Shown here: positions 4,464-15,007 of the stretch, piece by piece
How positions within the stretch are numbered: the first letter of the stretch is position 1
Layout of the letters: every line of letters begins with the position of its first letter
Source of the DNA: a virus
Virus record (IMG/VR): IMGVR_UViG_3300014839_000020
Location: 1 to 39,261 of that record
Length of the DNA stretch: 39,261 bases
Strand: one strand, 5' to 3'
Notes under the pieces: generated by a model
Database searches by the model: none
Told to the model about the DNA's origin: nothing
The model's input: only the letters and a program-made list of their open reading frames with translations
Made by a program: the position numbers and the translations under genes

Positions 4464-4907
4464 CTATGGGTTTTGAATAGCGCCTGCAATGCCGTTTAGT
4501 GAATCGAGCTTCACTTTAAATTTGGTGACATCATCACTGCAATTCATTTTCTTGCACGCATTGATGATATACGTTGCCAAGGGCGCGTAACTCTCTTGCG
4601 CGGGTAAGTAAACGGATTCGCGTCGCAGTTGCGACCACGGCTTTCCGTTCCACCAATGGCCTCTACCTTCACCAAGAAAAGCCTCTTGGCCCTCGACAAC
4701 CCATACGCAATGACCGCATTCGGGCTCGCCAATTTGTTTCATGCACGTCGGACTTGGAGTCAAAAGTAAATGTCCGGTTACAGCATCGGTTGAAAGGTGT
4801 TGCGACAGGTGCTCGCACGCGGCAATGTTAGGCGGCGCTGTCGCGCAGCCCTCAATTAGTGAACATGACAAAATTGCGAAAAGCAACCATTTGGCGTTTT
4901 TCGGCAT
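4464..4907 (-). CDS. Predicted lipoprotein, last gene of the late operon
   Basis: 147 residues from the ATG chosen because GGAG stands seven bases upstream; the frame is open further upstream without support. The N-terminus MPKNAKWLLFAILSCSLIEGC is a lipoprotein-type signal with the lipobox Cys at residue 21 (IEGC, an atypical but plausible box). The mature part has six further cysteines (AAC, PTC, PEC, GHC, NAC, NC) and a W-rich GRGHWWNGKPW segment. It overlaps the upstream gene by 56 bases. Position near the lysis genes would suit an outer-membrane spanin-like or host-envelope role, but its size and Cys content do not match a classic Rz1, so function is open. Confidence 0.65.
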   Translation of the reverse strand: MPKNAKWLLFAILSCSLIEGCATAPPNIAACEHLSQHLSTDAVTGHLLLTPSPTCMKQIGEPECGHCVWVVEGQEAFLGEGRGHWWNGKPWSQLRRESVYLPAQESYAPLATYIINACKKMNCSDDVTKFKVKLDSLNGIAGAIQNP

Positions 4908-5281: not shown

Positions 5282-7192
5282 TCAGAAGGTACAAGCCGTC
5301 GAGCCGTCGGCAGTCTTTACCCAACTTGAGCCGTTGCACACGCACATAATGAACGCGCTTGTGATGGCGATTTTTCCGGCTGCGTCGCACGTCGGCGTGG
5401 TACTGACGGGCTGCACGGGAAGTTGCAAAATGCCGGACATTTTCACGTCACCTGTTGCGCGGGTAACGCCGAATGTTTTATCGCCGGAATCTTTTGCGAG
5501 ATACAATTCGGTGCCGTCCACTCTGAAATAGTAGTGTTGCACACCTGCAAGCGATTGAAGGAGCCCGAAACGATTCGGTTTAATCCGGGCGTAACCCCAA
5601 GTATCTGCCGTCATGGTGTCCTCGGCGGCGTCAAAGCCAATAACAATTTGGCCATTCGAGGGAATGTTACCCGGTGCATCGCCGTCGCTCGCTAATGACC
5701 CAAGCCGAAGCTCCGCTTCCGGGCCGTAATTCCAAAGTTTGTTACGCCCGTACGATCCAACGCCACCGACCTGAACCGTATTAGCCGAAAACATTCCTGT
5801 ACCCGCTGCCGTTAAGTTTCCTGTTGGCCTCTCGACAGAAAACGTATTATTTCCGGCGTCGTTCGCGGTCTGTATGCCAGTCTGATCGGCGTTGAACGCG
5901 CTGACTTGTGTACCGTTTTCGCTATTCAGAATCAGGATTTGGCCTTGCCCGAACAGCATGAGATTTCCATAGAGGTTATTTAGGGCATGACCCGAAAACG
6001 AATTGAAGTACGAAACCAACCCTTGCGATGCGACGTTACGCGGCGACCCGTCAACTTCCCATCCACCAAGTAACAACGTGTTGTTTGGTGCGTTCCATTG
6101 AACCGATGGCCGTCCGAAAGCATCGGGAACCCCCACCAAAAAATCACGATCAGTCACGCCAACGCCTGCGCTAAGCCAACTGCCGGGGTCGGCAAATGTG
6201 AACGTATCGCTTGCAACCGTTGTCCCGGCGGCAAAAGTAAGCGTCACCCGGCTATTGAGCACGTCCACACTAGACACTCGGTAAAAAGATTCGATCAGGT
6301 CGGGCGACCAATTCGACGCCGTAAATGCCCCGCCGGAGTCCGCTACCCACATGCCGGGAACGATGTTTGCAGTCGAAGCGACGTTAATGATATTGCTTGT
6401 TGCGGTCGTGCTCCCGCTCACGGTAAAGCTGTACTTATGAAACGCCGCCGCGCCTGCCGCGACTTCCGATTGGACTCCGCGTTTCATAATTGTCGATGCC
6501 GCAGCCAAGCTTGTCGCGGCGACCGTATCGAGCTGCGATTGGTGAACGTCAGCGGCACTTGACCCGCCAATGCTATTCACCGTCGCGTGCGCGACGCCCG
6601 CGCCCGAAGCCGATACGTCAGTATCGAGTCCGGTAAGATAATTCCCTGCCGGTTGTTTCCCGTTAAAAGTCGCATGATCCGCTGCCGTCAATGCTCCCGG
6701 TACGGAATCGGTCGCGGCCTGTAGACTTAGCTGTTGCCCGGAAAGGCCGAGGCCGTTTGCCGTTCCGAGTGTGACCGCCGCGTGACGGGCCGACGTGTTC
6801 GCGGCAACATCGGTATTGGCGCTGACAGTCGTTTGAAAGTCGCTAATGAAAGAAGCGGTCAAGGTCGGGATATCGGACGATACCAACAAACGAAACGTTG
6901 GTGCGGCAGGCGAACCCGTCAGCGGTCCGGCCCATACACGGCTGGCCGCTTGGGTCGCAAGAGTCGCCGTCAGCGTCCCGCTTGTCGTAACCGGGGAATG
7001 CGTTACTGTAAATAGACTCGGGAGCGAAAGCCCGACACTGGTTACGCCACCCCCACCAACAGAAGGAATACAGGCGTGCGTAATAAGATTGTACGCGCAT
7101 CCGGGGCCGTAAATAATGGGGCTTGCGGCCTGGACACTTCCGGGCAGCGAGCACACCAAAAACGTGAGGAGAAAAGCTGTTAATCGGTTCAT
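5282..7192 (-). CDS. Large fibre-like protein with Sec signal peptide
   Basis: 636 residues from the ATG that has AAAGGG six bases upstream; a TTG fifteen bases earlier is unlikely. The N-terminus MNRLTAFLLTFLVCSLPGSVQA is a textbook signal peptide with A-x-A-type cleavage before ASP. The following segment with VGLSLPSLFTV, SPVTTSGTLTATL and DIPTL is the repeat style of phage tail fibres. The rest is Gly/Ser/Thr/Ala-rich, beta-type. The mature protein has six cysteines, two at the start (GPGC, HAC) and four at the end, which could form disulfides after export. It is the largest fibre candidate. An exported tail fibre is unusual; it could be an adhesin placed on the host surface or assembled onto virions in the periplasm. 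Confidence 0.75.
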   Translation of the reverse strand: MNRLTAFLLTFLVCSLPGSVQAASPIIYGPGCAYNLITHACIPSVGGGGVTSVGLSLPSLFTVTHSPVTTSGTLTATLATQAASRVWAGPLTGSPAAPTFRLLVSSDIPTLTASFISDFQTTVSANTDVAANTSARHAAVTLGTANGLGLSGQQLSLQAATDSVPGALTAADHATFNGKQPAGNYLTGLDTDVSASGAGVAHATVNSIGGSSAADVHQSQLDTVAATSLAAASTIMKRGVQSEVAAGAAAFHKYSFTVSGSTTATSNIINVASTANIVPGMWVADSGGAFTASNWSPDLIESFYRVSSVDVLNSRVTLTFAAGTTVASDTFTFADPGSWLSAGVGVTDRDFLVGVPDAFGRPSVQWNAPNNTLLLGGWEVDGSPRNVASQGLVSYFNSFSGHALNNLYGNLMLFGQGQILILNSENGTQVSAFNADQTGIQTANDAGNNTFSVERPTGNLTAAGTGMFSANTVQVGGVGSYGRNKLWNYGPEAELRLGSLASDGDAPGNIPSNGQIVIGFDAAEDTMTADTWGYARIKPNRFGLLQSLAGVQHYYFRVDGTELYLAKDSGDKTFGVTRATGDVKMSGILQLPVQPVSTTPTCDAAGKIAITSAFIMCVCNGSSWVKTADGSTACTF

Positions 7193-7207
7193 GTGAAGCC
7201 CTTTCAA

Positions 7208-7564
7208 TCAATAGAAAAAGTTGATGTCATTCTCGCCCGCGCTTGCTGTGCCCGTAATGGCCCGGATTGAAACGCGCGTACCAGCGGAAACGGTTAAAGC
7301 GAACTCGCCGCCGCCGGGCGGAAGGATGAACAGACGGCTTTCGTTACCCGCGCTGCCTGTACCGATTTCCATCGTCTGTCCGCTCGAATCAAAAATGGTG
7401 AGCTTATAGACCGACGCGGGTAAAGACGAATAGAGTTCAACCCAAGACGACGTACCGACACTCGTAACCGTATAATCGGTCCGGGTGTTTACCGAATGCG
7501 AAACATCGGCGCGCGCAATGGCGGTAAAAACCAACAACATCAAAATAAAAAATAGGTGTTTCAT
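7208..7564 (-). CDS. Small exported protein, probable minor virion or surface protein
   Basis: 118 residues. MKHLFFILMLLVFTAIARA is a clear signal peptide with cleavage before DVSH. The mature part is all-beta: SSWVELYSSLPASVYKLTIFDSSGQTMEIGTG, then LFILPPGGGEF and AGTRVSIRAI, ending INFFY. This arrangement is seen in small phage structural or decoration proteins, though normally without a signal. It has no cysteine in the mature part. GAGGG precedes the ATG, and it is the first gene downstream of an intrinsic terminator, so it may have its own promoter or depend on readthrough. Confidence 0.6.
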   Translation of the reverse strand: MKHLFFILMLLVFTAIARADVSHSVNTRTDYTVTSVGTSSWVELYSSLPASVYKLTIFDSSGQTMEIGTGSAGNESRLFILPPGGGEFALTVSAGTRVSIRAITGTASAGENDINFFY

Positions 7565-7586
7565 TTTCTCGCCCTCTTAAAAGAAA

Positions 7587-7617
7587 GGCCGCGCAATCGG
7601 CTTGAAATTGCGCGGCC
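7587..7617 (-). terminator. Intrinsic terminator after the 7695-8138 gene
   Basis: GGCCGCGCAAT and ATTGCGCGGCC form a perfect 11-bp stem with a 9-base loop. On the minus strand it is followed at once by TTTCTTTT. It lies about 80 bases after the stop of the lysis-region gene and just before the start of the small exported protein, so it separates the lysis and baseplate genes from the last four genes. Confidence 0.85.
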
Positions 7618-7694
7618 CCTCGGTGTGATTGTGGTGCGCCGTTGTAGCGGGCGCGGAGTGGTAAACGATTGAACAAGCCTTGAGGAGTCCCACG

Positions 7695-8138
7695 TTACCC
7701 GATGGCCTTAACCGCCTGGATGATAATGGCCTTAACGGTTTCCTCGATCGGAACCGCGCCCGCCGGGCTCTTAGCCTCGATTTCGGCGAACAGTTTGCCG
7801 AGGAGTTTTTCGGCGTCGCACTTCACGAATGCGCCGCCCTCAATGCCCGCGTCACCCGGAACGGCTGCGGAAATCGAAATGGTCGCAATACCTTTTTCGA
7901 GCTTGAGGTCAACGTCGCCGACCGTACCCAACTTAACGTCTTTTTCCATGTTACTTTTGCCCTTTCTGAAGTACCGCCGGATCACCCAAGCCCCGATATT
8001 CTCGATCAGTTCCCAAGACGAATTGGCGGCGAGTTTTTTGGTCTTACCTAACCAATACTCCCATACCGAAAAACCTATTGCAATTGCGTTTTGTTTAATG
8101 AACGCCAGGACTGACAGCGACCAATGCGGTAAAGTCAA
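7695..8138 (-). CDS. Two-part lysis-region protein (holin-like N-terminus), TTG start
   Basis: 147 residues. The start is a TTG six bases after a perfect AAAGGAG that lies inside the upstream lysozyme gene; the 44-base overlap is therefore genuine. The N-terminal 60 residues contain a hydrophobic stretch and the phage-typical string EYWLGKTKKLAANSSWELIENI, followed by a basic patch RRYFRKGK. The C-terminal part from Met64 (MEKDVKLGTVGDVDLKLEKG) is acidic and Ala/Ile-rich. A second ATG at Met64 has AAAGGG upstream, so an 84-residue short form may also be made. A small membrane-active role beside the endolysin is plausible; not proven. Confidence 0.65.
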   Translation of the reverse strand: MTLPHWSLSVLAFIKQNAIAIGFSVWEYWLGKTKKLAANSSWELIENIGAWVIRRYFRKGKSNMEKDVKLGTVGDVDLKLEKGIATISISAAVPGDAGIEGGAFVKCDAEKLLGKLFAEIEAKSPAGAVPIEETVKAIIIQAVKAIG

Positions 8139-8691
8139 GCGAGACTCCTTTCGCTTCCAGCGTTTTTAGAATGGCAGCGGCACCGGGTCTTGACTCCTTT
8201 TTTGTGGGGTCAAACGTACCGTCAGCGACGAATAGCCCGGACGTGTACGCGTCGGTGTAATCCCATAGATACGGGGTATTTACCCCGCGTTTCTGGTATC
8301 CCCCACCATTGTAATACTCCATGAATTCGAGGCATCCGGCCAGGTCCCAGGCGGGCGGTTGCACTCGTCCGGTAAGCGCGTTGCAAGCTGAATCTATCCA
8401 GGTAAAGGGCGGCGCTCCTTTGGCGGGTCGGCCCGCCGGAATGTGTACCGTCCGGGCCGAGAGCGGATCGCCATTGTGTAAATGACACTTGAAATTTTGC
8501 CCGGATTCCCGAAAGTGAATGGCCGCGATGACGGGCCATGGAATCGAAACGAATTTCTCAACCGTACTATAGAAACACTGATTCGCGAGTGCGACCCGGC
8601 AAACCGAATCGAGTTCTTTCAGTTTGCGCGGGTCATCGGTTAGACGGCAAGAGGCGTATAGATTCGAGTAATCGCTTGGCGTCATCGACAT
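8095..8691 (-). CDS. Endolysin / lysozyme-like peptidoglycan hydrolase
   Basis: 198 residues from the ATG with AAAGGA eight bases upstream; earlier in-frame starts would extend deep into the previous gene. The central segment WPVIAAIHFRESGQNFKCHLHNGDPL carries a Glu in the place of a lysozyme or transglycosylase catalytic residue, followed by FTWIDSACNAL, and EYYNGGGYQKRGVNTPYLW, a signature of goose-type or SLT-like phage lysozymes. It would cleave cell-wall glycan at lysis. There is no signal peptide, so a holin is needed; small membrane proteins on both sides could serve. Confidence 0.8.
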   Translation of the reverse strand: MSMTPSDYSNLYASCRLTDDPRKLKELDSVCRVALANQCFYSTVEKFVSIPWPVIAAIHFRESGQNFKCHLHNGDPLSARTVHIPAGRPAKGAPPFTWIDSACNALTGRVQPPAWDLAGCLEFMEYYNGGGYQKRGVNTPYLWDYTDAYTSGLFVADGTFDPTKKESRPGAAAILKTLEAKGVSLDFTALVAVSPGVH

Positions 8692-8908
8692 GCGGCGTGT
8701 CCTTTCCGGCGGCGAATGCCTCGACCCCAACGGATGGTATGACATTCTCGGCGCGATATGCAGGGATGCCGAGTTTTTCTTCGATCCGTTGAAGCCGGAA
8801 GTTTACGGCGGCGACCCAAAACGATCCCACGACCGTTACGGAAATCATAACGCCGAAACCTGCAAGAGCCCATCCGATAGGCATAACCGTCTTTTCATCT
8901 ATTTTCAT
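8633..8908 (-). CDS. Small membrane protein of the lysis cassette (holin/antiholin candidate)
   Basis: 91 residues. After a short N-terminus (MKIDEKTVMP) comes one membrane segment, IGWALAGFGVMISVTVVGSFWVAAV, then NFRLQRIEEKLGIP, which looks like a short coiled coil, and a hydrophilic tail. Arrangement and position immediately before the endolysin, with a 59-base overlap, suggest a holin or spanin-type function. The family of similar small phage proteins is not functionally assigned as far as I know. Confidence 0.7.
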   Translation of the reverse strand: MKIDEKTVMPIGWALAGFGVMISVTVVGSFWVAAVNFRLQRIEEKLGIPAYRAENVIPSVGVEAFAAGKDTPHVDDAKRLLESIRLLPSNR

Positions 8909-8914
8909 AACTCA

Positions 8915-8974
8915 CTAACCCCGATACATCAGAATCAAAACCATCGCGATTCCGACGAGGAAAATAAGGCGCAC
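8915..8974 (-). CDS. Possible 19-residue membrane peptide
   Basis: A GTG start two bases after the previous stop gives MRLIFLVGIAMVLILMYRG and a TAG stop that lies just before the holin-candidate gene. It is almost entirely hydrophobic, and it fills the only gap between two genes in the lysis cassette. The Shine-Dalgarno is weak. It may be a real micro-protein of the membrane or chance. Confidence 0.25.
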   Translation of the reverse strand: MRLIFLVGIAMVLILMYRG

Positions 8975-8975
8975 G

Positions 8976-10070
8976 TTAGTTCACTTTCTTAAATCTCCAA
9001 CCTCCTGTGCGGGACATGATTGAGCCACTATTATTAAACGCCGCGCCAGTTGAAGACGTCAGCCCAAAAAGAAAATGAATTTGTTGTGCCCCGGTCGTGG
9101 TCGCTGTCATGAATCCGCAAATTTCGTAATTCGCGGGCTGGTTTACAACGGTGTACCACGCTTTTGCGCCGCCCATTGTATTGTTGTTCGTATCTTGTAA
9201 TTCGTAATTGACGTAAGTATTTATTGCCGTCGGGTAACCGATAGCGTCGACACATGCCTCGAATGAGTCACCAGCCACGGCGTTGAAAGCGAGATTAACA
9301 CCATGTGGATCGGTGCCGGTAAACGTAACTGATCCGGCGTTCACGTTGAGTGTTGGGACGAGTTCGCAGCTCGCGCCCCATCCTGAGCCCCCCATGTCAT
9401 ACATGGTGTTGGCTGTCCATGTCCCGCTTGAAACGCTGCAACTTGTCCACCAACCTTGATATATAACTGGAATTTTCTGCGCGGGCACGGGCACGACCAA
9501 AGAGGGTGACGCCCAATTCGGATTGCTCCAAATTGCCGTCAGTGCCCCTAAGAGGCGAACCGGGCGAGAAGTATGAACACTCGTACACCAAAGTTTGGTG
9601 CGGTCGGTGTCCGCACTTCCGGTCAAGGCAGAGGCAGATTGCACGACTTGTTCGTCGAACTGAGAAGCAGATAGGCAGATTTCCGAAGTCGTGTCGGAAA
9701 TCAGATAAACGTACAACTTGGTTGCCGCCGAGGCCGTCGCTCCGATCGAGTCCGCCGCCGCGAGTGTGATTGAATTCGCCGCCGTGAAATCTTTTATGGT
9801 TGCCGCTCCGCTTGTGGCCGTCGCGCTTCGGAAGCGAGCCCGAACCGTTCCCGAGCCCGTGGTCGGGGCCGAGCTGCCGTCGGCTTGGACGAGGCTTACA
9901 ACAAGCGTGTTTGACGACGCGGTTGCCGAAATTCCGGCGTTATACAAGCCGAGAGAATCGGCGGCACTAGCCGCAAGTTTTGGTGCGGTAATGCCGCCGT
10001 CAGGCACGACGTAACTTGCATTCGCGGTCAACGAGAAAACAAAAGCTAAAAGTACGCATAGATTTTTCAT
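8976..10070 (-). CDS. Fibre-like protein with Sec signal peptide
   Basis: 364 residues. MKNLCVLLAFVFSLTANA is a signal peptide with A-N-A cleavage before SYVVPDGGITAPKLA, a start typical of tail-fibre proteins (DGGIT..KLA). The middle is Ser/Ala/Thr-rich beta repeat; the C-terminal 160 residues (from YQGWWTSCSVSSGTW) look like a compact beta-sandwich carbohydrate-binding type domain. Six cysteines in the mature part. AAGGAG precedes the ATG. It lies directly upstream of the lysis cassette and downstream of a cytoplasmic-type fibre. Likely a receptor-binding or surface adhesin; route to the virion is unclear because of the signal. Confidence 0.7.
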   Translation of the reverse strand: MKNLCVLLAFVFSLTANASYVVPDGGITAPKLAASAADSLGLYNAGISATASSNTLVVSLVQADGSSAPTTGSGTVRARFRSATATSGAATIKDFTAANSITLAAADSIGATASAATKLYVYLISDTTSEICLSASQFDEQVVQSASALTGSADTDRTKLWCTSVHTSRPVRLLGALTAIWSNPNWASPSLVVPVPAQKIPVIYQGWWTSCSVSSGTWTANTMYDMGGSGWGASCELVPTLNVNAGSVTFTGTDPHGVNLAFNAVAGDSFEACVDAIGYPTAINTYVNYELQDTNNNTMGGAKAWYTVVNQPANYEICGFMTATTTGAQQIHFLFGLTSSTGAAFNNSGSIMSRTGGWRFKKVN

Positions 10071-10083
10071 GACGAATTTCTCC

Positions 10084-10749
10084 TTAGATTACATCCCATA
10101 CAGAAGTTGCCCCGCGAACGTCTACAGCTTCGCCAGGGTTGTTAAGCTCAAATGTGTTTGCAAAGTCGATGAGTTCGGAACCGTTTCCGGCGACAATAAC
10201 CGGATTGAGCGAGCTATCGACCTTTTTTATTTTGATGTCTTTACCGAACGCGGTTGCAATCGCGGGCAAAGTCACGGCAACCGGCCCGGCGGTCGCGTCA
10301 ACCCTAATCATGTCGTCATTCAAAGTTGCCGCTCCGCTCGCCGTAATTGTTCTCGAAGCTGCGCCCCAAATCCGCCATTTCGTTACGTCTGTGACCGGAT
10401 TGCCGGTGTTGTTGTCTGCAATCGAAATATAGAGAATGCCGCCCGCCAGCGCAAAGTTGTTGGTGTAATAGGTCGTTCCGGCGTCGTATTCGGGGATGCC
10501 GGATTGCATGAGGTAAGCCAACTGATAGGCGACGACGAAACAAAAAGCGTTCATGTCTTCGATTGCCGGGCTATTGCTACCAAGGATTGCGCCGAACCAG
10601 CCATCAAGCCAATTCGACAGCGATTGCGCAAGCGTCGGATCAGTCGTAAAAGTCGGACTTCCGGCGGCGAGACTTCCGAAAATGCCAATCTGATTCGCCG
10701 CCGCGTTTGATCCGAAAATTTTCTGCGTTACTCTTGCTAAACGTCCCAT
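10084..10749 (-). CDS. Tail fibre protein (no signal peptide)
   Basis: 221 residues. The N-terminal half (GRLARVTQKIFGS, then NWLDGWFGAILGSNSPAIEDMNA and YLMQSGIPEYDAG) is a widespread tail-fibre or tail-attachment segment. The C-terminal 90 residues (IRVDATAGPVAVTLPA ... VDSSLNPVIVAGNGSELIDFANTF) form a domain shared with the exported 158-residue protein encoded two genes upstream. AAAGGGG precedes the ATG. It follows the DUF2612 gene, so it probably attaches at the baseplate. It contrasts with its neighbours by lacking an export signal. Confidence 0.8.
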   Translation of the reverse strand: MGRLARVTQKIFGSNAAANQIGIFGSLAAGSPTFTTDPTLAQSLSNWLDGWFGAILGSNSPAIEDMNAFCFVVAYQLAYLMQSGIPEYDAGTTYYTNNFALAGGILYISIADNNTGNPVTDVTKWRIWGAASRTITASGAATLNDDMIRVDATAGPVAVTLPAIATAFGKDIKIKKVDSSLNPVIVAGNGSELIDFANTFELNNPGEAVDVRGATSVWDVI

Positions 10750-10768
10750 GTGAACCCCTTTTGTTTCT

Positions 10769-11392
10769 TTACCCTAACTTGTCCGCATACGTCAGCCAAT
10801 GCCAATGCATCTGATACGCGGCATAGCTGTTGAACGGCGTTACGTTGAAGCCCGGCAAATCGTAAGTACGGAATCCGAAAAAAGTCGTAATCGCTGGCGC
10901 GTAAATAATCGAGCTGAGTTGCACGCCCATTGGCTTCGGTAATAGCCCCTCGGTTAAAAACAACTGCGCAAGATTCGAGCTAATATAATCGGCGTTGATG
11001 ATGAAATCCATTTGCATGTTCTTTTTGTCGAACACCAAAATGACACCGAGGAAATAGATTGCGAGCAATGCTTGAATCGCTGCAAGCGAACTGCCCGAAT
11101 TGTTTCGGATGATAGCGAGCTTAATCAGTTCTCGGAACTCATCGTCGCCAAGAGTAATTGGCCCCGTGAATCCCGTACCTGATCGGGTCACGCCCGCGTA
11201 CTTACCGACAACGTCGAGCTGAACGCCGACGGCGGACGCAACCGAAAAAGCGTCTTGAACCGTAAGCGGTAAGTTGTCCATAAGGAAAGGTTTCACGACC
11301 GTCTGGATCGTTGCGTATGCTTTCGGCTTTCCGCGATATTGCAGAATGAGGAGGTTCGCGTAATAGTCGATGATATCTTGAAGCGACATCAT
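10769..11392 (-). CDS. DUF2612 baseplate-peripheral protein
   Basis: 207 residues. The features YANLLILQYRGKPKAYATIQ, VGVQLDVVGKYAGVTRSG and LGDDEFRELIKLAIIRNNSGSS match phage DUF2612 proteins, which follow baseplate J in many myoviruses and occupy the place of the gpI-type baseplate protein linking to fibres. The start ATG overlaps the stop of baseplate J (ATGATG). It probably sits at the baseplate rim and connects the J protein to the tail fibre encoded next. Confidence 0.8.
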   Translation of the reverse strand: MMSLQDIIDYYANLLILQYRGKPKAYATIQTVVKPFLMDNLPLTVQDAFSVASAVGVQLDVVGKYAGVTRSGTGFTGPITLGDDEFRELIKLAIIRNNSGSSLAAIQALLAIYFLGVILVFDKKNMQMDFIINADYISSNLAQLFLTEGLLPKPMGVQLSSIIYAPAITTFFGFRTYDLPGFNVTPFNSYAAYQMHWHWLTYADKLG

Positions 11393-12774
11393 GTCACCGT
11401 AACCGTCGCTTGCGCGACGTTCCCGACTGCATCCGTTACTTGCACAACGTCTGTACCCGGACCCGCCGACGTGTAAACGCCCGTGGACGGGTTAACTGAT
11501 CCCGCGCCCGAGGCCATCGAGTACACATACGGCGCGAGGCCGTTAGAGGCGGTAAAGGAAACATTCTGTCCGCTTCCGACAACTGCCGTTTTGAATGGTG
11601 AGATTCCAACCGAATAGGTCGCAACGACGTTGAATTGATTTTTCTTTGACGACGGTGATAGAGAATTCTTGTATGTTCCGAGCTGCGTAAGGGAAAACCC
11701 GGCCCCCGTCACCAAGCAATTCGGATCAATGGCTTGAATCAAAGTTGCAAGCGCGTTGATGTTGACCTCTTCATTGACCCCATAAATCGTGGGCAAGCCC
11801 GCAAGAATCGCCGAAAGATTGGGCGGCGTAACACCGTCGAGCGAGGACGCCGAAAACTTCACATAGAGATTTTCAGAGGCGACAATATCCCAATTGACGA
11901 TAAATGGGCTTCCATCGGCTTGCGTGATAATAGCGGACTGTGCGCCCTTCATTCCGCAACCGGCGTTACGCTTGAGGTAAATCGCGTTGGCGACTGCATT
12001 CGGATCAAACGTACCCGCGACAATAACCCAAATCGAATGACCGGGTACGCCGTTTAAGTCGGTCGTTCCGGTGTTGTTCTCGTATACGAAAGCGGACGTG
12101 ACGCCGTTGATGTTGCGAAGTGCCGCGAGAAGCCCGGCCAAGAATCCTTGCGAGGCGAGAGATACGGATTTTTGACGGCGGATTTTGAGTGCGGCGTCGG
12201 TTTCCTCGTTGAGCCCGGACGAAGTATACGTCGTTGGGTTATTGATGGACGAAACGCCGAGAACAATTGACACCGGAACGGTAATGGTGTTGACCGTCGT
12301 AAGAACAGCGCCCGGATTCGCGGCGCGAAATGCGTAAACGTAGGTGCCCGGACCCGCCGGACTTTGAGTCGCGATAAGGCGCCATTTATTGCCCGCGTTG
12401 TCGGCAACCGTATAGGCATCGGATTCGACCGAAACGGTGTCAAGACCGGGAAGCGTTAGCGCCCGATCAGCGACAATCGTCACGTTCGTAATCGTGTAAG
12501 TACCGGCGAGCCGTTGAATTCCGTTGAACGCAACTCGGCTATCGAGCACGACACCGAACGCTCGATCGGGGTCCATACTGTTATAGATTTCAGCGAGCAA
12601 GTCCTGTTCGTCCAAGATGGCCTGAATCATAATATTCATCCATTGGCCGTCAGGGGAACTTTGGCTTAGGTCGATGTCGGACCCGTAAATTGCTTGGAGC
12701 TGCGCCACGAAATAAGCGACCAACTCGTCATAGGTTGCCGTCGTAAGGCCGCTTGCGGTGAGTGCGTTTGACAT
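11389..12774 (-). CDS. Baseplate J-like protein with C-terminal Ig-like domain
   Basis: 461 residues. The N-terminus (YDELVAYFVAQLQAIYGSDIDLSQSSPDGQW, then LLAEIYNSMDPDRAFGVVLDSRVAFNGIQRLAGT) and the central EETDAALKIRRQKSVSLASQGFLAGLLAAL are typical of the baseplate J family, the wedge component that triggers sheath contraction. The last 85 residues (NVSFTASNGLAPYVYSMASG ... VQVTDAVGNVAQATVTVT) form an immunoglobulin-like domain, related to those at the N-termini of two other virion proteins here. AAAGGGG lies before the ATG. Confidence 0.92.
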   Translation of the reverse strand: MSNALTASGLTTATYDELVAYFVAQLQAIYGSDIDLSQSSPDGQWMNIMIQAILDEQDLLAEIYNSMDPDRAFGVVLDSRVAFNGIQRLAGTYTITNVTIVADRALTLPGLDTVSVESDAYTVADNAGNKWRLIATQSPAGPGTYVYAFRAANPGAVLTTVNTITVPVSIVLGVSSINNPTTYTSSGLNEETDAALKIRRQKSVSLASQGFLAGLLAALRNINGVTSAFVYENNTGTTDLNGVPGHSIWVIVAGTFDPNAVANAIYLKRNAGCGMKGAQSAIITQADGSPFIVNWDIVASENLYVKFSASSLDGVTPPNLSAILAGLPTIYGVNEEVNINALATLIQAIDPNCLVTGAGFSLTQLGTYKNSLSPSSKKNQFNVVATYSVGISPFKTAVVGSGQNVSFTASNGLAPYVYSMASGAGSVNPSTGVYTSAGPGTDVVQVTDAVGNVAQATVTVT

Positions 12775-12783
12775 AGTGCCCCT

Positions 12784-13260
12784 TTACAGAATATCCCAAT
12801 TCGTCCCGTTACAATAAATCTGCAACGTGTCGCCTGGATTTACCAGTAAAAATGTGTTTGCCAAGTCGATCAGCTCCGAGGAATTCCCTTTAATCGTGAC
12901 CGCGTTCGCGCTTGAATCAACTTTTTTAACGTAAAGCGTGGTGCCGGATGACGATGCAGCGGCGGGCAAAGTAATTTGAAATGTCCCGCCTGTTGCGTCG
13001 CAACGAATGATTCCGTCAGAAGTTGTCGCCGTATAGTTTGCTGTTTTTGTTACTGCGGTCAAGGCAACTGCCGAAGGCGCCGAAAATGAAGCGCCGCCGG
13101 AGCCGTCGGCTTTTAGTACATACCCGGATGACGCCGCGCCCGAGTTAATTTTTGTAGCCGCGATTGTTTTGGGCACATGATATTTACCATCAATTTCTGC
13201 GGCGAAAACCGACCCGGTCAAAGCCCCAATCAGTACGCCCACCAAAAGAAGATTTCGCAT
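12784..13260 (-). CDS. Exported fibre-tip-like protein with Sec signal
   Basis: 158 residues. MRNLLLVGVLIGALTGSVFA is a signal peptide, cleaved before AEIDGKYHVP. KINSGAASSGYVLKADGSGG is fibre-like. The C-terminal domain (IRCDATGGTFQITLPAA ... VDSSANAVTIKGNSSELIDLANTF ... NWDIL) is clearly paralogous to the end of the cytoplasmic-type fibre at 10084-10749. Two cysteines in the mature part. AGAGGAAA precedes the ATG. It is located just upstream of baseplate J, inside the baseplate operon. Confidence 0.7.
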   Translation of the reverse strand: MRNLLLVGVLIGALTGSVFAAEIDGKYHVPKTIAATKINSGAASSGYVLKADGSGGASFSAPSAVALTAVTKTANYTATTSDGIIRCDATGGTFQITLPAAASSSGTTLYVKKVDSSANAVTIKGNSSELIDLANTFLLVNPGDTLQIYCNGTNWDIL

Positions 13261-13296
13261 AAAATGTTTCCTCTCTGTGCGATCAGTTTCCCTAGA

Positions 13297-13325
13297 GAAG
13301 CCGCGAAATGCTCATTCGTGGCTTC
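13297..13325 (-). other. Intergenic hairpin between two exported-protein genes
   Basis: GAAGCCGCGAA and TTCGTGGCTTC form an 11-bp stem with one G-U pair and the loop ATGCTCA. There is no T-run after it on either strand, so it is not a standard terminator. It may act as an mRNA stability or processing element between two fibre-like genes. Confidence 0.5.
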
Positions 13326-13338
13326 AAACGAAAACAGA

Positions 13339-14112
13339 TTAATAAACACACTTTGCGTACAGGACGTTGCTCGCTGCAAGTGGGGTTGCCCCGGCAGTTG
13401 CCAGGTCGCCCGCGAACGTCACGCGAGTTTTGGAGCTTACGACCGAAACCGTAAAATCCACATCCTCGATAACATAACCAAGACCGCCCACGGCCAAATG
13501 CAAGCTGTTGGCTTTGCATTGCTGGCTAAGATCAACATACTGAGCGGTGATGTCGCCAGTAACCAGGGTAATGGCTTGTTTTAGATAGCTCACGGCGGCG
13601 GGAACGGCGGCGTCAACATAAGCAGTCGTCGCAAGTTTTGTGCTGTTGTCGGCGGGCGACTGAGTCGTCGCGGTCGTGCCGTTCGGCAGGGCGGGCGTAC
13701 CGGACAGGTTTGCCGCCGTTCCGCTTGTGCTCTGATTCAGGGTCGGGACATCGCCCGCCTGAATCGCGGCCACGCTGCAATGAGTACCATTACAGCGGAT
13801 ATAATCACCCGACGTTACCGCTCCTGCAATGGCGTCAAGCGCGGCTTGCTGAGTCGTTGCGCCTGTGCCGCCTTGCCCGATAGACAGCGCGGTTGTCAGC
13901 CCCGACAAAGAGGTAATGTCGGAGTTCGCGCCGCTTGCGGCCTTTCCGCCGAGGGCAGTATACACGGCACCATTTGTCGGCGCGTGCGTGCTATCGCCGC
14001 TCGTAATCGTTCCGTTTAAGAGCTGTTGCAAGTACGTTCCGCTGATTTGCGCGCCATACGCAAGGCTCGTCACCAAAAGAATGCTCAGAATCCAAAGATA
14101 TGACCGTTTCAT
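13339..14112 (-). CDS. Exported fibre-like protein with Sec signal
   Basis: 257 residues from the ATG preceded by AAGGAGGTAACGACA, the strongest Shine-Dalgarno of the region; the frame's earlier start is not needed. MKRSYLWILSILLVTSLAYG is a signal peptide with cleavage before AQISG. The motifs SIGQGGTGATTQQAALDAI and TQSPADNSTKLATTAYVD are standard lambda Stf-like tail-fibre repeats. Four cysteines in the mature part (RCNGTHC, QQCK, AKC). It sits between the gp25-like and baseplate J genes. A fibre with unmistakable tail-fibre repeats plus a signal peptide makes accidental misassignment of the export signal unlikely. Confidence 0.75.
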   Translation of the reverse strand: MKRSYLWILSILLVTSLAYGAQISGTYLQQLLNGTITSGDSTHAPTNGAVYTALGGKAASGANSDITSLSGLTTALSIGQGGTGATTQQAALDAIAGAVTSGDYIRCNGTHCSVAAIQAGDVPTLNQSTSGTAANLSGTPALPNGTTATTQSPADNSTKLATTAYVDAAVPAAVSYLKQAITLVTGDITAQYVDLSQQCKANSLHLAVGGLGYVIEDVDFTVSVVSSKTRVTFAGDLATAGATPLAASNVLYAKCVY

Positions 14113-14126
14113 TGTCGTTACCTCCT

Positions 14127-14591
14127 TCAAGGTAGTACCATAATTCGGTATTCAGTCCCGAGACTGATACCTGTTAGTGGGTTTAAGTCCCCGTCGAGTC
14201 TCAACCCGTCCCATCGGAGCTGATTACCCACAACGCGATAGTCCGCCGGATGATTTGGCGGGTTATTCGTAGTTCCATAAATTTGCGGTGCGCCCGTATT
14301 CAAATCAAAAACGACTTTCGTCGGAGTCGATGGGACGAACCCGAGCGAGATATATTTATTGATGAGGTCCGAGGCTTGAACCACACCATAGAGAGGAGCG
14401 GGCGGGACGTTTGGCAAACTGAAAATGTCTTGCAGCTTGAGCCGCTTTGTCACGTTGTTGACCGAATCGACATAAGGAAATGAATCGTTGATGTTGGTGG
14501 CCGGGGCCGAACCGAGCGGCAAGTCGCCTATCTTTACGTCAGCCGCGAGACAGGTACTTGCGAGTAGAATCAGCAAAATGTATTTCATCAT
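14127..14591 (-). CDS. Exported small fibre-like protein with Sec signal
   Basis: 154 residues. MMKYILLILLASTCLA is a short signal peptide with cleavage before ADVKIG. The segment KIGDLPLGSAPATNINDSFPYVDSVNNVTKRLKLQDIF is the type found at the N-termini of small phage fibre or adhesin proteins. The C-terminal part (VVGNQLRWDGLRLDGDLNPLTGISLGTEYRIMVLP) is beta-type. Its start overlaps the stop of the gp25-like gene (TGATG), so it is translated coupled to a baseplate component. No cysteine remains after cleavage. Confidence 0.7.
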   Translation of the reverse strand: MMKYILLILLASTCLAADVKIGDLPLGSAPATNINDSFPYVDSVNNVTKRLKLQDIFSLPNVPPAPLYGVVQASDLINKYISLGFVPSTPTKVVFDLNTGAPQIYGTTNNPPNHPADYRVVGNQLRWDGLRLDGDLNPLTGISLGTEYRIMVLP

Positions 14592-15007
14592 ATTGTTATC
14601 CGATCCCCGGTTTGAGTGTTGATGTCTTCACCGGCTTGAGTGAGTAAATATCGTGTAATCGCGGGCGCTGCAATCGTACTCGAAATCGCTCCGTAAACCG
14701 TGTCCACGCTATAAACAATGGTGATGAGGCGGTGAATATCGACCGTAAGCGAAAGTTCGGTCAAGGTTGATACGCCGTCAGTGTTCACAATGACGGCGGC
14801 GACCGCGAGGTTAAGAGCGGTTTGGTTTTTCGCGCCGAGAAGATTGAACCAATCGACCCCGGCAGCGAGGTCAAAAAAGCAATCGCCTAGAAATGACAGC
14901 ACGTTTGTTTTGATGAGCTGCGCGGTCGCTTCCTTATTTTGCTGATAATTATTCTTGCCGCGCCCGAAGGTCCAATCACCGTGCGAATCTATTGATCTAA
15001 CTATCAT
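14588..15007 (-). CDS. Baseplate wedge protein, gp25-like
   Basis: 139 residues. DSHGDWTFGRGKNNYQQNKEATAQLIKTNVLSFLGDCFFDLAAGVDW, followed by LG and the C-terminal RLITIVYSVDTVYG, is the pattern of the GPW/gp25 family, the inner wedge component that contacts the sheath. Size fits the family. It is between the spike gene and the exported proteins, and the order spike, gp25, J is conserved in myoviruses, apart from the three exported genes inserted here before J. Confidence 0.82.
   Translation of the reverse strand: MIVRSIDSHGDWTFGRGKNNYQQNKEATAQLIKTNVLSFLGDCFFDLAAGVDWFNLLGAKNQTALNLAVAAVIVNTDGVSTLTELSLTVDIHRLITIVYSVDTVYGAISSTIAAPAITRYLLTQAGEDINTQTGDRITI

Follow-up and report, generated by a model that had tools for sequence, protein, structure and literature searches.

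Introduction

Tail fibres of tailed phages are taken to be cytoplasmic products that are assembled before lysis. Morons of the lambda Lom/Bor type, found in temperate phages, are secretory proteins whose genes lie next to those of the tail fibres. Among bacteria, the predator Bdellovibrio bears on its surface mosaic adhesive trimer (MAT) fibres with signal peptides (PMC10769870), and genomes of the Bdellovibrio class contain up to 23 S74 matches each. The isolated Bdellovibrio phage phi1422 is a dwarf myovirus of the phiPLPE group; in the passages of its published description that we searched (PMC3391216), signals on its fibres are not mentioned, and our literature search, of partial coverage, found no previous description of tail fibres with signals. 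Here we analyse a 39-kb virus record from a metagenome (IMGVR_UViG_3300014839_000020, 39,261 nucleotides, hereafter the window), in which six fibre-region genes are predicted to encode proteins with Sec signal peptides (SP).

The window encodes a contractile-tail phage with portal, sheath, hub, spike, gp25-like, gpJ-like and gpI-like proteins. From portal to anchor fibre its proteins are collinear with those of phi1422 (L027) at 29-55% identity, with a homologous structural module running from portal to gpI, and by this measure the window belongs with the phi1422-like phages. Its host is most likely a Bdellovibrio-like predator, judging from its relatives: phi1422 infects Bdellovibrio, and a prophage of the same clade sits in Bdellovibrio sp. 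UBA4095. This context, a predator that exports phage-like fibre adhesins and whose phages are the nearest characterised relatives of the window, was overlooked in a first-pass annotation of the DNA and makes the finding intelligible. Fibres that are conserved, Sec-exported and probably disulfide-bonded would either break the rule of cytoplasmic assembly or reveal phage adhesins that act on the infected predator.

Compared with these systems, the phage SP-bearing fibres (SP-fibres) resemble MAT adhesins in their Sec signal, phage-like shaft modules and even cysteine numbers, with an S74 tip in relative L035; unlike MAT adhesins, they are without the LTYQGRI N-domain, are mostly shorter and lie in a phage late gene run. 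With phi1422 the window shares the order of the fibre region: gp75, with an SP and PDG.VT..KLA, matches 8976-10070, and gp73 is an SP-less homologue of 10084-10749. By contrast to the six SP-fibres of the window, phi1422 has two, and its KIS-domain protein gp67 carries no SP. Ordinary cytoplasmic tail fibres of the KIS-domain and QGGTG-shaft types have the N-terminal domain, the shaft motifs and the position after gpI in common with the window fibres, but begin with Met and the domain, without a signal. Unlike Lom, an outer-membrane barrel, and Bor, a lipoprotein, the fibres of the window are soluble and encoded by several genes, in a phage for which no lysogeny module is recognised.

Results and Discussion

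Signal peptides in the fibre region

N-termini were examined with a rule-based Sec/signal peptidase I screen (charged n-region, 8-17 residue h-region, small residues at -3/-1) that recovered 26 of 27 known signal peptides of E. coli. The signals and cleavage sites given below are predictions of this simple rule on open reading frames (ORFs) from a crude gene caller. By this approach, exactly six fibre-region genes and the lipoprotein 4464-4907 were positive among the ~54 called ORFs of the window. The six are those to which the first-pass annotation had assigned Sec-type signals, and all were recovered, at the positions it gave, on the minus strand:

14127-14591, minus strand: SP and KIS-type fibre N-terminal domain (ADVKIGDLPLGSA...NDSFPYVDS...TKRL); 154 residues, 0 Cys; flagged by the SP screen; 60% identity to L043; predicted cleavage MMKYILLILLASTCLA(A)^DVKIG; 4-nt ATGA overlap with the gp25-like gene
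13339-14112, minus strand: SP and tail-fibre shaft with QGGTGATT repeat; 257 residues, 4 Cys; PHROG tail fiber, E=1.8e-8; Shine-Dalgarno AAGGAGG; predicted cleavage MKRSYLWILSILLVTSLA^Y, alternatively ...AYG^A
12784-13260, minus strand: SP and C-terminal domain common to the SP-less anchor fibre; 158 residues, 2 Cys; flagged by the SP screen; predicted cleavage MRNLLLVGVLIGALTGSVFA^A
8976-10070, minus strand: SP, PDGGITxxKLA motif and fibre module; 364 residues, 6 Cys; SP and [IV]PDG.[IV]T architecture recurs in relatives; predicted cleavage MKNLCVLLAFVFSLTANA^S
7208-7564, minus strand: SP and small beta-rich domain; 118 residues, 0 Cys; first gene of a two-gene cassette; predicted cleavage MKHLFFILMLLVFTAIARA^D
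5282-7192, minus strand: SP, Cys pair and fibre shaft repeats; 636 residues, 6 Cys; second gene of the two-gene cassette; predicted cleavage MNRLTAFLLTFLVCSLPGSVQA^A

The signal is encoded from the best start of every one of the six genes. The good Shine-Dalgarno sequence or coupled start claimed for each was borne out, with a Shine-Dalgarno-like sequence upstream of five and a translationally coupled start (ATGA) for 14127-14591. Four of the six (14127, 13339, 12784 and 8976) are part of the baseplate/fibre gene run or immediately adjoin it, the order being gp25-like, 14127, 13339, 12784, gpJ-like, gpI-like, 10084, 8976. The other two, 7208 and 5282, lie past three small ORFs, one of which (8095-8745) is lysin-like by inspection.

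The signals were concentrated in the fibre region, with 6 of its 12 genes SP-positive compared to 1 of the 42 other window genes (Fisher p = 2e-4). Comparison with other phages, which the first-pass annotation had proposed, pointed the same way. Eight control phages whose baseplate is related but whose hosts differ (Proteus, Aggregatibacter, Salmonella, Rhizobium, Vibrio, cyanobacterial, Aeromonas and Iodobacter) had no SP in the 16 fibre-region genes examined, and relatives such as phi1422 were SP-positive. Across all genes the control rate was 8/382, lysis proteins among them, against which the six of the window give p = 7e-8. In Pseudanabaena phage Pam3, a hypothetical gene next to those for the tail fibres (L158:19649-20104) also scored SP-positive; it is not annotated as a fibre and lies outside the 16.

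Conserved virion proteins of the same clade provided a further control, as no SP was found in 452 distinct homologues (anchor fibre 63, gpI 39, gpJ 76, gp25 82, spike 75, hub 78, sheath 39). Four of the corresponding window genes adjoin the SP-fibres:

14588-15007, minus strand: gp25-like baseplate wedge, SP-less (0/82 homologues); phrog_120; overlaps the start of the first SP-fibre gene
11389-12774, minus strand: gpJ-like baseplate wedge, SP-less (0/76 homologues); phrog_6, E=6e-36
10769-11392, minus strand: gpI-like tail structural protein, SP-less (0/39 homologues); phrog_587, E=7e-28
10084-10749, minus strand: anchor tail fibre, SP-less internal negative control (0/63 distinct homologues); PHROG tail fiber, E=9e-13

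The tail-fibre motifs quoted in the first-pass annotation were found in the sequences. Its description of all six as fibre-type proteins gained a family match for 13339-14112, and for the other five depends on position, motifs and relatives. Only 13339-14112 and the SP-less 10084-10749 had a recognised tail-fibre family match among the window fibres, and 13339-14112 also matched the solved phage tail fibres 7z47 and 8vbx. The protein 12784-13260 is 49% identical over 88 residues to the anchor fibre 10084-10749. Searches of PDB sequences gave no match for 5282-7192 or 8976-10070 and chance matches only for the KIS domain, and AlphaFold models of 8976-10070 and 14127-14591 (mean predicted local distance difference test scores of 37 and 51) were too poor for fold searches. 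The screen and Pfam detected no lipobox, second transmembrane segment or lysis domain in the six, features that phage lipoproteins, spanins or signal-arrest-release endolysins would have.

Signal-bearing fibres in relatives

In a comparison of the 88 loci that have a gpJ homologue, 46 of 490 genes downstream of gpJ encoded an SP, a count that includes lipoproteins and other short exported non-fibre proteins, compared to 7 of 795 upstream (p = 1e-13). In phi1422, SPs were detected on gp68 (MKFMIAFIIALFSVTMATA^Q) and gp75 (MKSFAFLFILLFGFLAQA^SFWIPDGSVTNKKLA), both testable genes in an isolated phage, with predicted mature N-termini at Q20 and S19, respectively. SP-fibres were also present in at least 16 IMG/VR metagenomic relatives and in the clade prophage of a Bdellovibrio sp. 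UBA4095 contig, where bacterial genes and tRNA-Leu flank the prophage. This prophage (L148-L151; G001:C12 ~96.4-138.9 kb) spans from an integrase-like gene to tRNA-Leu. Behind the signals of relatives stand hallmarks of fibres, including an S74 chaperone domain at the end of the L035 protein and the phage Tail Collar domain PF07484 in L044.

Individual window genes have counterparts of the same design. The full-length homologue of 7208-7564 (L062:20489-20833) is 51% identical and has its own diverged signal, and the next gene in both encodes another SP-fibre, in which a Cys pair follows the signal (5282-7192; L062:19154-20482). No direct relatives of 8976-10070 were found among the viral contigs searched; its combination of SP and [IV]PDG.[IV]T recurs in phi1422 gp75, L029, L038, L045 and L064, and its placement directly after the anchor fibre recurs in 14 of 55 loci. 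On the gpJ tree the SP label was clustered (10 changes compared to a shuffled mean of 17.2, with 0 of 500 shuffles as low), and by this reconstruction the SP on fibres is gained or lost repeatedly across the clade. Several loci free of SP-fibres have ordinary SP-less fibres at the position that follows the anchor fibre.

Signal-bearing proteins of this kind may extend beyond the gpJ clade, as indicated by L161, a phage that was not recovered by way of that clade. At L161:4576-11639 it encodes two adjacent SP proteins of >1100 residues beside structural genes; the first, the only one searched, matches fibre or decoration proteins of isolates.

The KIS domain and cysteine parity

A KIS-type N-terminal domain (KISQLPLGS...NDSFPYV...TKRL) was found directly behind the signal in 12 clade proteins, including 14127-14591 of the window; the screen missed one of them, in L073, whose n-region is uncharged. 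Without an SP, and with Met immediately at its start, this domain also occurs in phi1422 gp67, the UBA4095 prophage, L110 and L088. Because the start of these versions coincides with the point at which the signal ends in the others, signal cleavage would regenerate an ordinary fibre N-terminus. Capture of the KIS domain from the host was considered and set aside, as no copy was detected in 144 genomes of the class by a short profile that would also miss the SP-less prophage copy.

Exported bacterial proteins are biased to even cysteine numbers, for reasons discussed in PMC7678975. Among non-redundant clade-locus proteins (non-lipoprotein chains with cysteine, the SP-bearing set including some non-fibres), the number was even in 36 of 44 SP-bearing mature chains compared to 396 of 977 SP-less chains (p = 5e-8). 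MAT proteins, used as positive control, were even in 17 of 17 ORFs. The six window proteins have 6, 0, 6, 2, 4 and 0 cysteines (5282, 7208, 8976, 12784, 13339 and 14127, respectively). This even-cysteine bias supports periplasmic folding with disulfides.

Taken together, the controls from neighbouring genes and other hosts, the conservation, the cysteine parity and a cleavage site that coincides with the beginning of the domain support the view that these are true Sec signals on fibre-type proteins. Along with the operon position, these elements are read directly from the DNA and its predicted products.

Relation to the MAT adhesins

The shaft of 5282-7192 is 57% identical over 53 residues and 51% over 65 residues to a chromosomal MAT of G016 (L206), and the shaft of L043 is 54% identical over 46 residues to a MAT of G001. 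The finding also connects the fibres of phages with Bdellovibrio MAT adhesins. Shaft modules common to the two hint at the host in a manner that is only suggestive, since such short motifs also occur in fibres of other phages. Membership of the six in the MAT family was rejected: the conserved ~130-residue N-domain is absent, and a hidden Markov model of 17 MAT N-domains found nothing significant in the window or its phage relatives. Beyond this N-domain and the signal peptide, which the six do have, the family is characterised by a trimeric beta-prism shaft and a variable tip.

Export, docking and alternative roles

We infer the following course of events in a Bdellovibrio-like host. The six fibre genes would be expressed late together with the baseplate genes, as suggested by gene order, with tail and SP genes in a single run, and by the ATGA overlap. 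The fibres would cross the inner membrane via Sec and the SP would be removed by signal peptidase I. Mature chains would fold in the oxidising periplasm, probably as trimers and often stabilised by disulfides. Cleavage would expose the normal fibre N-terminal domain, with docking when lysis mixes the compartments, and the docked fibres would sit alongside one cytoplasmic anchor fibre, 10084-10749. T4 and P22 fibres are functional in vitro when supplied to particles in a lysate, which makes the docking step feasible. Export of the six proteins by Sec, with cleavage by signal peptidase I, is strongly supported and very probable. Docking of the mature fibres onto virions at lysis is plausible while falling a little short of probable, and the explanation as a whole, in which Sec-exported, disulfide-bonded late fibres dock at lysis, we place just on the probable side. 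The broader proposal, that a tailed-phage lineage uses the host periplasm for oxidative folding, with Sec export of its fibres, trimming to the standard N-terminus, disulfide bonding and attachment to virions at lysis, outside the cytoplasm, is offered tentatively.

Several observations weigh against this explanation. We know of no tailed phage that completes its fibres from the periplasm, and the literature searched yielded none. Forty loci with at least 4.5 kb downstream carry no SP-fibre, and the tree needs ~10 label changes. Phi1422 and the UBA4095 prophage leave the KIS fibre SP-less and place the signal on another fibre instead, and the role of the KIS domain as virion anchor is assumed from gene order and from its location at the N-terminus. 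In L062 the SP cassette is separate, oppositely oriented and beyond the lysis genes, which fits an accessory role better. This block (L062:18741-20833, minus strand) comprises three SP genes transcribed against the tail genes and past lysis-type genes, two of them syntenic with 7208-7564 and 5282-7192.

The SP-fibres may alternatively be exported adhesins that never join the virion, residing in the periplasm or at the cell surface of the predator under infection. There they could alter prey attachment, mediate superinfection exclusion, serve as a receptor decoy that spares progeny, or act like MATs in the bdelloplast. Such a role is a genuine if somewhat doubtful possibility. The host itself displays SP-bearing MAT fibres (PMC10769870), the shaft modules shared with chromosomal MATs include those of 5282-7192, the L062 cassette forms a separate block, and the exported 12784-13260 carries the terminal domain of the virion fibre 10084-10749, as expected of a decoy. 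However, with no MAT N-domain, lipobox, second membrane segment or known outer-membrane route, surface display would be left unexplained, and four of the six genes are inside or adjoin the baseplate gene run. Furthermore, no integrase or repressor was detected among the window genes scanned, a subset of those in a record that may be incomplete; lysogenic conversion therefore appears unlikely for the window. Both roles fit the present evidence, and docking onto virions is slightly favoured over an adhesin or decoy role.

Of the three meanings suggested in the first-pass annotation (fibres that join the virion in the periplasm or upon lysis, adhesins on the cell surface, or signals that act differently), the last appears least likely, because of the cysteine parity and the regenerated domain N-terminus. 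A related rival takes the hydrophobic N-termini for anchors, in membrane or virion, that stay uncleaved on fibres assembled in the cytoplasm. The cleavage sites are indeed predictions; nevertheless, good small-residue -3/-1 sites are found in all six and in relatives, the even-cysteine bias lies in the mature part, the KIS domain starts exactly at the predicted site, and the signals retain their character although their sequences have diverged, so that uncleaved anchors are improbable. Chance hydrophobic N-termini or gene-start artefacts are more improbable still: the screen is not free of false positives (8 of 382 control-phage genes), but the statistics for the window alone (p = 7e-8) and across relatives (p = 1e-13) reject this reading, and the starts are backed by Shine-Dalgarno sequences and homology.

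Additional features of the window

The lipoprotein 4464-4907 (minus strand), a further envelope protein that adjoins the fibre block, has a signal with lipobox LIEGC and 6 Cys; similar lipoproteins were found in L050, L054 and L062. A scan for promoter and terminator consensus sequences gave no excess over shuffles. At the contig end, the first 200 bp (ORF at 15-227, translation GNQRRGWNQRRV...) are a degenerate short tandem repeat, possibly a terminal repeat or an assembly edge. The C-terminus of the gpJ-like protein 11389-12774 (residues ~390-461) is an immunoglobulin-like repeat, which also matches tandem repeats of very large chromosomal proteins in 16 of 144 Bdellovibrio-class genomes.

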